Positions 28,231-32,989 of a DNA stretch of 36,757 nt are shown one piece after another. The stretch's first letter is position 1; each line of letters starts with the position of its first letter. Source of the stretch: an uncultured Chlorobiaceae bacterium (GTDB taxonomy: Bacteria > Bacteroidota > Chlorobiia > Chlorobiales > Chlorobiaceae); NCBI GenBank assembly GCA_903822595.1, contig CAIJPS010000023.1, positions 1-36,757 on the forward strand, written 5' to 3'. Both the position numbers and the translations under genes were made by a program. The notes under the pieces were generated by a model, which worked only from the letters and a program-made list of their open reading frames with translations, was not told the DNA's origin and made no database searches.

Positions 28231-29034
28231 ATGTGTGATACCTGCGGTTGTTCAACTGAAGACTGGGCTGTGCTTCGTAAACCCGGCCAGAGTGATTATC
28301 ATGTTCATGTCAACGAGCACGAACACGCTCATGGGGAGCATCATCGCCATGAGCATGGCGATCATCATCATGAGGGCGGAGGCAGGAAGGTTGTGCTTGA
28401 ACAGGATGTGCTTCAGAAAAATAATTTGCTTGCTGAAAGAAACCGGGGATATTTTGAGGCGCGGAAGATCTTTGCGCTTAATTTTCTGAGTTCTCCCGGC
28501 TCGGGAAAGACCTCGCTGCTTGAAAAAATCATTCCCGCCCTGCAGCAACGCTTTCCTGTTGCGGTTATCGAGGGTGACCAGCAGACCACCAATGATGCTG
28601 AGCGGATTCAAGCCCTCGGTGTGCCTGTTATCCAGATCAATACCGGCTCGGGATGCCATCTTGATGCCTTGATGGTCAACCGTGCGGTAAAGGAGCTCGA
28701 TGTAGAGGATAATTCGCTGCTTTGTATTGAAAATGTCGGAAATCTTGTCTGTCCGGCACTCTTTGATCTTGGTGAAGCCCTGAAAGTGGTGATTATCAGT
28801 GTGACGGAGGGAGACGACAAGCCACTGAAGTATCCGACCATGTTCCATGAGGCGGACCTCTGTATTCTCAACAAGATTGATCTTCTGCCATACGTGGAGT
28901 TTGATGCTGCCAAATGCAGGGAGAATGCCATGCGGGTCAACCACCATCTCGAATGGTTTGAGCTCTCTGCCAAAACCGGAGAGGGGCTTGCTGCATTGCA
29001 GGAGTGGCTCGAAGATAAACTGGCACAGCACTGA
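28231..29034 (+). CDS. hypB: Hydrogenase nickel chaperone GTPase HypB
   Basis: A 267-residue SIMIBI-class GTPase. The N terminus has CDTCGC (residues 2-7), the high-affinity nickel site, followed by a His-rich stretch (about residues 25-48, with some 14 His) that can store nickel. G-domain motifs are LSSPGSGKTSLLEK (P-loop), VIEGDQQTTNDAERI, IENVGNLVCPALFDLGE (with the Cys of the metal site) and LNKIDLLPYV (guanine specificity). All are present. GAGGAA precedes the ATG. The stop TGA (29032-29034) overlaps the likely CTG start of hypF. Confidence 0.97.
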   Translation: MCDTCGCSTEDWAVLRKPGQSDYHVHVNEHEHAHGEHHRHEHGDHHHEGGGRKVVLEQDVLQKNNLLAERNRGYFEARKIFALNFLSSPGSGKTSLLEKIIPALQQRFPVAVIEGDQQTTNDAERIQALGVPVIQINTGSGCHLDALMVNRAVKELDVEDNSLLCIENVGNLVCPALFDLGEALKVVIISVTEGDDKPLKYPTMFHEADLCILNKIDLLPYVEFDAAKCRENAMRVNHHLEWFELSAKTGEGLAALQEWLEDKLAQH

Positions 29035-31529
29035 GCACCAGCAATAACAGTCTCGAAGAGCGGAGGCGGCTCCGGGTCAATGGTATCGTGCAAGGCGTCG
29101 GATTCCGTCCCTTTGTTTACCGTCTGGCTGTCAGTTTTGGGCTAAAGGGTTTTATCCGCAATACGGCCTCCGGTGTACTGATTGAGGTGCAGGGTCCGTT
29201 CGCTCTTCTCGAACAGTTTTTGCAGCGTTTGCGGGGCGAGATTCCTCCGCTTGCGCACATTGAAGCCGTCGAAGAGAGCTCAATTGCCTGTGTTGTTGAG
29301 GATCGTTTCGTTATCGGGGATTCGAGTTCCGGTGCCGGAGTCGAAACACTCATTCCGCCCGATATTGCGCTCTGCAGCGACTGTCGCCGCGAGCTTCTGG
29401 ATCCCGCCAATCGCCGGTTTCGTTATCCCTTCATCAACTGTACCAATTGTGGCCCCCGATATACCATCGTCGGGCGTCTCCCCTATGATCGTCCCTTTAC
29501 GTCGATGCATGGTTTTACGATGTGCCGGGAGTGTGAGCAGGAGTACCACGACCCGTTTGACCGACGGTTCCACGCACAGCCCAATGCCTGCCCGCTTTGC
29601 GGCCCCTCGCTTGCCTTGTTTGATGCTTCAGGTGCGCCTCTCCTGGATGATGCCATTGTGGAGCACAACTCTCTTCATGTTGACGGGAGTGTTCATGCGC
29701 AGCCTCAAGCCAGATCGTTATGCAGCCCATCCCTGCCAGGCGATGCTGTCACCGAAGCTGTGGCTCTTCTCAAAAAGGGGCTGATTGTTGCGCTCAAAGG
29801 GCTTGGAGGCTTTCATCTTGCCGTAGATGGTCGAAATGAGCGAGCGGTGCGCCGGTTGCGGGAGAGGAAGGGGCGTGAAGCCAAACCTTTTGCCGTCATG
29901 ATGCGCGATATGGCGCTTGTCCAAAGGTACTGCGAGGTTAGTGAGGGAGAGTGTACCGCATTGAACGCTGCGCAGGCGCCCATAGTGCTTCTCAAAAAGA
30001 AAAAGAGCTGTGCTATAGCCCCATCTGTAGCTCCAGGTAATGATCGGCTTGGCGTCATGCTGCCCTATACACCGCTTCACACCCTGCTTTTCGATGATAC
30101 TCTTGATATTCTGGTGATGACCAGCGCCAATTTCAGCGAGGAGCCGATTGCAAGTGAGAATGAGGAGGCACTCTTGCGGCTCAAGGGCATTGCCGATGCT
30201 TTTCTCGTGCATAACCGCCCCATCTGGCTGAAATGCGATGATTCGGTCACGATCTCTTTATCGGGAACGTTGCGGCAGATCAGGCGAAGCAGGGGATATG
30301 TCCCCGCACCGATTTATTTGCGAGAAGGAGGTGCCACCCTGCTTGGTACAGGAGGTGAGCTGAAAAACACGATCACTCTTCTGAAGGGTAACCATGCGCT
30401 GATGAGCCAGCATATCGGCGACATGAAAAACTTTGAGGCATACCGCCATTTTGAGCAGGTTGTCGCCCATCTGCAGCACCTCTTTCAGGCCACTCCCGAG
30501 CTTCTGGTGCACGACCTGCATCCTGGCTACATGACCACACAGTGGGCCGTGAAGCAGAGTATTGGGCTGCTTGGCGTGCAGCACCATCATGCTCATCTTG
30601 CCTCATGCCTGGCCGAAAACAGGGCGGAGGAGCCTGCCATTGGCCTTATACTCGATGGCACAGGCTACGGAACCGACGGGACGATCTGGGGCGGAGAGCT
30701 GCTGATCGGGGATGCTGCCGGAGCGGAACGCTTTGCCTCGCTTGAGCTTATGCCGCTTCCGGGAGGTGAGACGGCGGTCATGCAGCCCTGGCGGGCCGCA
30801 CTTGGTTATCTTCACCGAAGTTGTCCCGACCTGCCTGACCTGCCCTTTATGAAAGAGCGAGGGATAGCACCGGTGCTTGAGTTGCTCGAAAAGAGGGTCA
30901 ATGTTGTAGAAACCTCAAGCTGCGGCAGGCTCTTTGACGCCGTTGCCGCACTTTGCGGCCTGCGGGGTGAGATCACCTATGAGGGAGAGGCCGCCATAGC
31001 GCTTATGCATGCCGCAAGGGGAAAAATTGGCCTCAAGTCGTTTCGCTGTGAGCTGCAGTATGAGAAAGTGCAAGCTTTTGCGTCGATGCAACCATCAGGA
31101 GGCACCACGGGCACAAAAGACCCTGCAGTGGTTGCAGCAGGGGTAACTATCTTCAACAAGCAGGCCATCTATAAGGAAAAAGGTCGCTGGACTCTGCTGC
31201 TCTCACCACTGATTCAGGATGTAGCCGCTGCCCTGCAACAGGGGATGGCCACCAGTGAAATCAGCCAGAGGTTCCACCGCACCCTTGTAACCAGCTTTCA
31301 CCGGTTAATCGAAAAAGCATCCGGGGCGACCGGCCTGAAAACCGTAGCACTCAGCGGCGGAGTTTTTCAGAATGAGCTCCTCTTTGAAACCCTCGTCAGT
31401 GAGCTGCAAGCCGCAGGCTACAACGTACTGACACACGCCCTTGTGCCCTCCGGCGATGGTGGCCTCTCCCTCGGCCAGGCCGTCATTGGTCGAGAGTACC
31501 TCAAAGGCAACTATTACGGAGTCCAATGA
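29031..31529 (+). CDS. hypF: Carbamoyltransferase HypF (cyanide-ligand synthesis)
   Basis: HypF makes the thiocarbamate on HypE that becomes the CN ligands of the NiFe site. Domains: acylphosphatase (RRRLRVNGIVQGVGFRPFVYRLA), two zinc fingers (CSDC...CTNC and CREC...CPLC), YrdC-like domain (KGLGGFHLAVDG, KGREAKPFAVM), and a Kae1-like domain (HHHAHLASCLAE, LDGTGYGTDGTIWGGE, LSGGVFQNELL). No ATG precedes the acylphosphatase motif; the GTG at 29088 would cut it. The only near-start codon that keeps the full domain is CTG at 29031, within CTGA overlapping the hypB stop, giving 832 residues. That is longer than the usual 750-770; part of the excess is a repeated HAQP-x-A-x2-LC segment after the second zinc finger. 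Confidence 0.93.
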   Translation: MSTSNNSLEERRRLRVNGIVQGVGFRPFVYRLAVSFGLKGFIRNTASGVLIEVQGPFALLEQFLQRLRGEIPPLAHIEAVEESSIACVVEDRFVIGDSSSGAGVETLIPPDIALCSDCRRELLDPANRRFRYPFINCTNCGPRYTIVGRLPYDRPFTSMHGFTMCRECEQEYHDPFDRRFHAQPNACPLCGPSLALFDASGAPLLDDAIVEHNSLHVDGSVHAQPQARSLCSPSLPGDAVTEAVALLKKGLIVALKGLGGFHLAVDGRNERAVRRLRERKGREAKPFAVMMRDMALVQRYCEVSEGECTALNAAQAPIVLLKKKKSCAIAPSVAPGNDRLGVMLPYTPLHTLLFDDTLDILVMTSANFSEEPIASENEEALLRLKGIADAFLVHNRPIWLKCDDSVTISLSGTLRQIRRSRGYVPAPIYLREGGATLLGTGGELKNTITLLKGNHALMSQHIGDMKNFEAYRHFEQVVAHLQHLFQATPELLVHDLHPGYMTTQWAVKQSIGLLGVQHHHAHLASCLAENRAEEPAIGLILDGTGYGTDGTIWGGELLIGDAAGAERFASLELMPLPGGETAVMQPWRAALGYLHRSCPDLPDLPFMKERGIAPVLELLEKRVNVVETSSCGRLFDAVAALCGLRGEITYEGEAAIALMHAARGKIGLKSFRCELQYEKVQAFASMQPSGGTTGTKDPAVVAAGVTIFNKQAIYKEKGRWTLLLSPLIQDVAAALQQGMATSEISQRFHRTLVTSFHRLIEKASGATGLKTVALSGGVFQNELLFETLVSELQAAGYNVLTHALVPSGDGGLSLGQAVIGREYLKGNYYGVQ
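29571..29735 (+). repeat. Internal duplication inside hypF (zinc-finger half repeated)
   Basis: The coding segments 29571-29612 (HAQPNACPLCGPSL) and 29694-29735 (HAQPQARSLCSPSL) match at 10 of 14 residues, 123 bases apart and in the same frame. The second copy has lost the first Cys of the C-x2-C pair. It lies in a stretch of about 30 extra residues between the second zinc finger and the YrdC-like domain. Confidence 0.65.
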
Positions 31530-31610: not shown

Positions 31611-31883
31611 ATGTGCCTTGCTATACCAGGAAAACTCGTGGAACTCTCCAATGAAAATGGCCTCAAGATGGGTATTGTTGATGTGAACGGTTCAAAAACA
31701 AGGACCTGCCTTGAATATGTGCCCGACATCAAGCTTGGGCAGTATACCATCGTTCATGCCGGTTTTGCACTGAAAATCATTGACGAAGAGGATGCGGCTG
31801 AAAGCCTGAAGCTCTGGCAGGAGCTTATCGAAAGCGGAGCATTCGAGCCTGATGAGAATCCCCCGACATTCGAATCGCTGTGA
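31611..31883 (+). CDS. hypC: Hydrogenase maturation chaperone HypC
   Basis: A 90-residue chaperone that carries the Fe(CN)2CO unit from HypD to the hydrogenase large subunit. It begins [12 protein letters not shown], in which Cys2 and the PGK turn are diagnostic, and has the strand pattern [38 protein letters not shown]. The start is certain because Cys2 is functional, yet there is no purine-rich ribosome site before it (CCACCAACCCA). It lies 81 bases after hypF and overlaps the hypD start region. The C terminus is slightly extended ([13 protein letters not shown]). Confidence 0.95.
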
Positions 31884-32989
31884 AGCAGACCAGCATGAAA
31901 TATATCGACGAATACCGTGACCCAGAGCTTGCCCGGAAGCTGCTTGAGGAGATCCACCGAAAAGCCACTCGTCACTGGACCATTATGGAGATTTGCGGCG
32001 GCCAGACCCATTCGATTCTGCGTAACGGCATTGATCAATTGCTGCCTGATACCATCGAATTGGTGCATGGCCCCGGTTGCCCGGTCTGTGTGACCCCGCT
32101 TGAATCAATTGAGCGGGCACTCCTTATTGCGGCAAGACAAGAGGTGATCTTTACCAGCTTCGGCGACATGCTGCGTGTGCCCGGCAGTTCAAAAGATCTC
32201 TTCATGGTGCGCAGTGAAGGGGGCGATGTGCGCATTCTCTTTTCACCGCTCGATGCTCTCCAGATCGCCCGCGACAATCCGTCAAAAGAGGTGGTCTTTT
32301 TTGCTGTCGGCTTTGAGACGACGGCACCAGCCAATGCCATGGCGGTCTGGCAGGCAGCACGAGAGGGAATTGAAAACTTCAGCGTTCTGGTCAGCCAGGT
32401 TATGGTGCCGCCAGCCATGCGTGCCATTCTCTCATCACCCGGAAACCGGGTGCAGGGATTTCTTGCGGCGGGTCATGTTTGCGCGGTGATGGGCTATGAG
32501 GAGTATGAGCCGATAGCCCGTGAGTTTCATGTCCCGATTGTTCCGACCGGTTTTGAGCCGGTTGACCTGCTTGCCGGAATTCTGAAAACGGTTGAACTGC
32601 TTGAAGAGGGGCGTGCAGAGGTGGTGAACCGCTACGGAAGGGTGGTGAGCCGTGAAGGGAACCGTGTGGCACAGAAGATTATCCGCCAGGTTTTTGAGGT
32701 AACCGATCGGCAGTGGCGGGGAATCGGCCTTATCCCCGGAAGCGGACTTGCTTTGAGGGAGGCGTATAGCCACTATGACGCCGAAAAAAAGTTTGATGTT
32801 TCGCATATCTGCGCCGCTGAATCACCGCTCTGCATGAGTGGCAGTGTGCTGCAGGGGATTCTGAAGCCCGACGGCTGCCCGGCATTTGCCCGGGAGTGTA
32901 CGCCGGAGCACCCGCTCGGCGCGACCATGGTCTCCTCCGAAGGTGCCTGTGCCGCCTATTACAACTATCACCGAAATTTTTCCCTATGA
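31880..32989 (+). CDS. hypD: Hydrogenase maturation iron-sulfur protein HypD
   Basis: A 369-residue scaffold where the Fe(CN)2CO unit is assembled. Conserved: MKYIDEYRD near the start, [15 protein letters not shown] (the key Cys), [44 protein letters not shown], and the C-terminal 4Fe-4S site with spaced Cys ([30 protein letters not shown]). The frame begins with GTG at 31880, overlapping the hypC stop as GTGA; the ATG at 31895 gives the family-typical MKYIDEYRD start and is an equally good choice. Its stop overlaps hypE by 4 bases. Confidence 0.96.

Follow-up and report, generated by a model that had tools for sequence, protein, structure and literature searches.

The linker that joins the zinc-finger region of HypF to its YrdC domain in the window, by which we mean the whole stretch of 36,757 nucleotides of DNA that was analysed, from a green sulfur bacterium, probably holds an old and decayed copy, partial and in frame, of the second half of zinc finger 2, and this copy is best read as tolerated, essentially neutral lengthening of a surface linker. 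The segment HAQPNACPLCGPSL at 29571-29612 recurs as HAQPQARSLCSPSL at 29694-29735, with an offset of 123 nt or 41 codons, exactly where a preliminary description of the sequence had placed the recurrence. Partial duplication within a gene is a general mechanism, and the window likewise repeats a neighbouring segment of the same gene in frame, but unlike a plain intragenic duplication its copy is strongly decayed and the original endpoints can no longer be drawn.

The host gene lies in a hyp locus with the order hypB-hypF-hypC-hypD-hypE on the + strand (NCBIfam names):

28231..29034, + strand: hypB, directly upstream of hypF (TIGR00073, 289 bits, cutoff 121)
29031..31529, + strand: hypF, complete (TIGR00143, 777.9 bits, cutoff 466.1; five HypF Pfam domain families)
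beginning near 31611, + strand: hypC (TIGR00074, 71 bits)
31880..32989, + strand: hypD (TIGR00075, 480.5 bits)
after hypD, + strand: hypE (TIGR02124, 473.8 bits)

The sequence marks the window HypF as an ordinary [NiFe]-hydrogenase maturation carbamoyltransferase. The Pfam domains PF00708, PF07503 (in two stretches), PF01300, PF17788 and PF22521 were found, and the acylphosphatase, the two HypF zinc fingers, the YrdC and the Kae1-like parts are all present. The AlphaFold model, with a mean pLDDT of 90.4, superimposes on the solved HypF 3vth_A with a TMt of 0.95. The protein thus shares with the known HypFs (TIGR00143; PDB 3vth, 3vti, 4g9i and 3tsp) its domains, the eight finger cysteines, the fold and the hyp gene order, and it differs from them by 31 additional residues in the linker from zinc finger 2 to YrdC and by a second loop, at residues 684-715, that is predicted to be disordered. 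The parts of the protein that bear on the linker are the following:

29373..29450, + strand: zinc finger 1, intact (C115, C118, C137 and C140, numbered from the CTG; columns invariant in 104 sequences)
29523..29600, + strand: zinc finger 2, intact (C165, C168, C187 and C190, numbered from the CTG; columns invariant in 104 sequences)
29571..29612, + strand: source segment HAQPNACPLCGPSL, the second half of zinc finger 2
29643..29735, + strand: insert of 93 nt or 31 residues relative to L022, which has a 32-residue linker; edges uncertain by a few codons
29652..29738, + strand: predicted disordered stretch, residues 208-236 (AlphaFold pLDDT <50)
29694..29735, + strand: decayed copy HAQPQARSLCSPSL (10/14 aa, 28/42 nt; one cysteine, residue 231)
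29766..30287, + strand: YrdC/Sua5 domain after the linker (PF01300, 142 bits; residues 234-407 when numbered from a start at 29067)
31080..31175, + strand: second loop that is expanded and predicted to be disordered (residues 684-715; C-terminal Kae1-like part; pLDDT <50)

The eight finger cysteines, which we take to be the zinc ligands, are all retained in the window and are invariant across an alignment of the window with 103 of 133 reference sequences. The preliminary description had the copy losing a zinc ligand; the change from CPLC to RSLC stands, but at most half a finger was copied and the eight finger cysteines are intact. A third zinc finger was also considered and rejected, since the copy has one cysteine in place of two CxxC pairs about 18 residues apart and its region is predicted to be disordered. 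Residues 208-236 and 684-715, together with residues 1-3, are the only segments of the model with pLDDT <50. Because the insert is predicted to be disordered, a remodelled zinc-finger/YrdC interface, which the preliminary description had raised for modelling, is not indicated. According to a review (PMC12134894), HypF has a tunnel in which carbamate stays shielded until carbamoyl-adenylate forms. Nothing in the present data suggests that the insert would contact this tunnel, and the model cannot place a disordered loop. Literature searches found no paper on a HypF insertion in Chlorobium and nothing joining the HypF zinc finger, YrdC and carbamoyl, which is no proof of absence from print.

The likeness between source and copy extends over 10 of 14 residues and 28 of 42 bases, and by codon position it amounts to 9/14 at the first, 14/14 at the second and 5/14 at the third. 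Among 324,415 ungapped 14-residue self-pairs of the window HypF the source/copy pair is the top scorer (52); the next, shifted versions aside, pairs the two zinc fingers, whose likeness is known (41), and the best such self-pair in 12 other open reading frames of the window scores 47. When the insert was shuffled, its score against the rest of HypF was reached in 3 of 40,000 trials, and its score against the zinc-finger half alone in 0 of 2000; at the DNA level, codon-shuffled inserts reached the score in 0 of 1000. A profile of 47 short-linker HypFs matches the copy at 12.7 bits (0/400 shuffles as high). Against this, chance gives the copy a 42-nt match of up to 26/42 at other places in the window, both strands counted. 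The similarity to a segment of the same protein is above chance, although not by the own-genome search alone, and the HAQP/AQP copy is absent from outgroups (0 of 65 parsed, among the matches listed). We judge the repeat to be real at the protein level, and old, and the in-frame partial duplication that the preliminary description proposed is supported by the shuffles, with the second half of zinc finger 2 as its origin. To the eye a complete tandem duplication, in which a GDAVAE flank is repeated, was attractive, but the likeness of the flanks is not significant (GDAVAE-like flank repeat in L001, 210/3000 shuffles as good).

The duplication appears to be old because only 5 of the 14 third codon positions are the same, and this figure, with the heavy synonymous change, led us to reject a recent event. 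The copy differs from its source at about 7 of 10.5 synonymous sites and at 7 of 31.5 other sites, whereas the orthologous source segments of relatives differ at 6/10.7 (L014), 5/11 (L012), 8/10.7 (L002) and 2/11 (L022) synonymous sites. It matches its own source at 28 of 42 bases, that of L007 at 31 and that of L014 at 29, so that by these comparisons the copy is near saturation at synonymous positions and resembles the source segments of some relatives at least as much as its own. Dating by aligned relatives, as the preliminary description advised, thus gives an old rather than a recent event, and 14 codons say old, not how old. The amino-acid-changing differences (7/31.5, set against 7/10.5 synonymous) count against drift, being fewer than pure drift might give; this low share hints at constraint, and it is biased since the segment was chosen for its likeness.

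In order to place the insert, linker lengths were surveyed in the family, where 79 of 86 genomes had a HypF match (a very weak one in G018 and in G074) and 70 were read (30 and 40 loci); L152 and L153 gave no usable open frame, the linker of L153 nonetheless reading 33. With eight extra loci added and seven exact duplicates removed there were 69 Chlorobiaceae rows, L041 and L130 having identical protein sequence across the columns used for the tree. The linker has 28-33 residues in 47 of these rows, 34-36 in 3 and at least 42 in 19, and it has 63 in the window, so that the claimed lengthening of the linker to YrdC holds; the 'about 30 extra residues' of the preliminary description come to 31 (29643-29735) relative to L022, where 32 linker residues separate CPLC from ALKG. 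Outside the family, 65 of 72 loci had a parsable linker, these being the closest among the matches listed and not a random sample; it has 32-33 residues in 46 of the 65 and 43-65 residues in 6, again among the matches listed. Most HypFs thus lack the extra segment, as the preliminary description required, and linker lengthening, as far as these alignments reach, happens outside the family too, less often in that sample. Two of the outside loci were striking in themselves: L090 has a 65-residue linker with GDPLAGGPLLG-like repeats by eye, and L106 one of 59 residues.

A tree of the 69 rows, built quickly from columns that exclude the linker and without bootstrap, places 18 of the 19 long-linker rows (42-82 residues) in one clade of 27 rows (SH-aLRT 97) that belongs to the window's genus and in which short and long linkers are interleaved. 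Among the 42 rows outside this clade the only long linker is that of L144, from another genus. Over the 69 rows at least 7 changes between short and long linkers are needed, and well supported branches force 5 of them. A single gain with no later loss was rejected, since L022 and L023, with linkers of 32 residues, sit among L001, L012, L013 and L014, with 63-75, and losses, repeated gains or recombination must therefore be invoked; holding the latter four together is disfavoured (AU p 0.012), the group having been chosen after seeing the tree. The insertion that the preliminary description singled out is thus a real insert but not a lone one, the site varying in one clade.

The same rows bear on the start of hypF. 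The likely start codon is the CTG at 29031, which overlaps the hypB stop TGA (CTGA, within 29031-29036), the first ATG, GTG or TTG being the GTG at 29088. An in-frame NTG overlapping TGA in this way is present in 68 of the 69 rows and is CTG in 49, TTG in 19 and ATG or GTG in none, counts that are not independent since the rows share kinship. Ten of the CTG rows have no in-frame ATG, GTG or TTG ahead of the first acylphosphatase strand motif, and the amino acid of the codon preceding the TGA differs between rows, so the pyrimidine is not explained by it. Seven of the 86 family genomes lack a HypF match (G022, G026, G029, G030, G039, G055 and G061), five of them listed as 96-100% complete, and HypF-dependent hydrogenase maturation may be absent from these seven.

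What fills the linker differs between lineages. Among the 69 rows the window is the only one with HAQP again in its linker, and AQP recurs there in three (L001, L003 and L005). The linker of L003 carries AQPECSPDYGPAM, whose likeness to the source was equalled in 286 of 40,000 shuffles against its whole host and in 0 of 400 by profile, and that of its relative L005 carries AQPECSPDFGPVM (6/400 by profile, 22/400 shuffles against the whole host). In L002, HDSLEVSFHEDHDGGLQCG can be likened to its own HDPLDRRFHAQPNACAVCG (1418/40,000 shuffles against the whole host, 3/2000 against the zinc-finger segment alone, 6/400 by profile). By these scores L002 and L003 would represent two further lineages with weaker echoes of the window's source segment. 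Neither shuffles nor profile showed a clear resemblance to the source half in L004, L006, L008, L010, L012, L014, L015 and L018 or in near relatives: against the own zinc-finger segment, the shuffles as good per 2000 were 95 for L012, 1629 for L014, 739 for L008, 862 for L018 and 266 for L015, and against the source half 356 for L004, 95 for L006 and 1785 for L010. The profile test, which covered 15 of the 19 long-linker rows (linkers of at least 49), gave weak matches for L008 (9/400) and L015 (11/400), but these lie on the half of the finger that is not the source. That the inserts of L001, L002 and L012 are homologous to one another was entertained and set aside as suggestive only, 66 pairs having been tested (7 and 5 of 1000 shuffles; L001-L015 also 5). 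On sequence comparison, then, the linker varies within one clade and is mostly filled without clear zinc-finger likeness.

Length variation in HypF extends to the second loop. In 16 of 64 rows (five of the 69 were not measurable), all in the same 27-row clade, this loop is expanded, its flanking motifs lying further apart than the 87 residues that are usual. Both loops are long in 11 of the 64 rows, the linker only in 8, the second loop only in 5 and neither in 40. Among nine second loops tested for an internal repeat, L022, L002 and L023 gave 2, 7 and 8 of 200 shuffles as good; that of the window has none (183/200). Relative to the window, HypC has 0-3 gap positions in 8 loci, HypD none and HypE 0-3 in the 6 loci that hold them, and HypB varies by up to 35. 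HypF and HypB are accordingly the ones that vary most among the Hyp proteins compared, as counted from their alignments.

Several other origins of the linker sequence were weighed. The linker could have grown from unrelated sequence, as in sister lineages, the HAQP...LC.PSL match being a coincidence picked by eye, and we consider this unlikely. In a search of the own genome the pair reached E = 0.89 and was outranked by an unrelated place with E = 0.435, the pair is missing from the output of the DNA repeat finder, and most sister inserts are without clear zinc-finger likeness. When a 39-residue piece around the insert was searched against 65 genomes of the genus, 26 matches were listed besides the insert itself. 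Of these, 12 fall on the HypF zinc-finger half, which speaks for the duplication although they are not independent, these HypFs being homologous; the best of those listed lies outside HypF, in G024 (E 0.002, with one internal stop), ahead of any relative's HypF. A coincidence is, however, hard to reconcile with the 3 in 40,000 shuffles against the whole protein, with a score above that of the two true zinc fingers and of any self-pair in the 12 other reading frames, with the shared reading frame of copy and source, or with the weaker matches of L002 and L003 to the same segment. It is improbable that the copy was selected, a half-finger motif in a flexible tether helping HypF to meet HypE or tuning domain movement: HAQP is found in no other linker of the 69 rows, the close relatives L022 and L023 are without the insert, and the insert is predicted to be disordered and has a single cysteine, even though the identity of all 14 second codon positions, the few amino-acid changes for the synonymous divergence and the expansion of two loops in the same clade, with HypC, HypD and HypE almost free of indels in the loci compared, speak for selection. 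The wider form of this idea, in which both HypF loops are hot in one clade of the genus, being repeatedly lengthened and shortened in frame, through partial duplication and other sequence, next to the near indel-free HypC, HypD and HypE, with the loops selected and the HAQP...C.PSL half-finger a functional remnant in the tether, seems to us improbable as well.

Insertion of a dispersed or mobile repeat is very unlikely for the window and is already disfavoured. Palindromic elements of Rickettsia insert in frame in protein genes and likewise lengthen a surface region, and L144 (genome G003, of another genus and listed with 9% contamination) has at the same point of its HypF linker a 58-residue in-frame insert that is a dispersed repeat, its core of about 34-39 bp being shared with 6 other places of the genome, with one match of 89 bp at 76%. 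Unlike the Rickettsia elements, the insert of the window is not convincingly present a second time in its own genome, where the highest-scoring match besides itself is 15 nt (E 1.08), on which ground a dispersed repeat was rejected; no inverted repeat was listed within it, and Rfam gave no match in L001 or L144. An error or chimera of the assembly would be a highly improbable source: the HAQP copy is known from one genome, a draft of 109 contigs, but a misassembled duplicate would be near identical and not 67%, the frame is kept, and sister rows also have long linkers here.

Taken together these data favour the old partial copy, and the preliminary description is confirmed in its observation and partly supported in its interpretation, the partial in-frame duplication being old, decayed and found in one genome. 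In an ancestor that predates the separation from the closest sequenced relatives, slippage or recombination would have placed in the linker a copy of, roughly, the region around (YHDP..RRF)HAQPNACPVCGPSL. As half a finger the copy could not have bound zinc and would have drifted under weak or no selection; in other lineages it would have been lost or replaced, or different sequence would have come to occupy the site. The insert was presumably tolerated because it lies in the flexible surface linker from the zinc-finger region to YrdC; it would merely lengthen this tether, and catalysis should stay unchanged next to an intact core.

No new function of the insert is shown and the view of HypF chemistry is unchanged. 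The window provides a small and clean example of a conserved multi-domain enzyme that tolerates sizeable in-frame insertions at a domain boundary, and the site would be useful for measuring linker tolerance in HypF. At this one linker site related species have no insert, a short one, a long one or a duplicated one, with a dispersed repeat in another genus; this is ordinary biology with a nice comparative series, in which the copy is one of several fillings of a variable linker.
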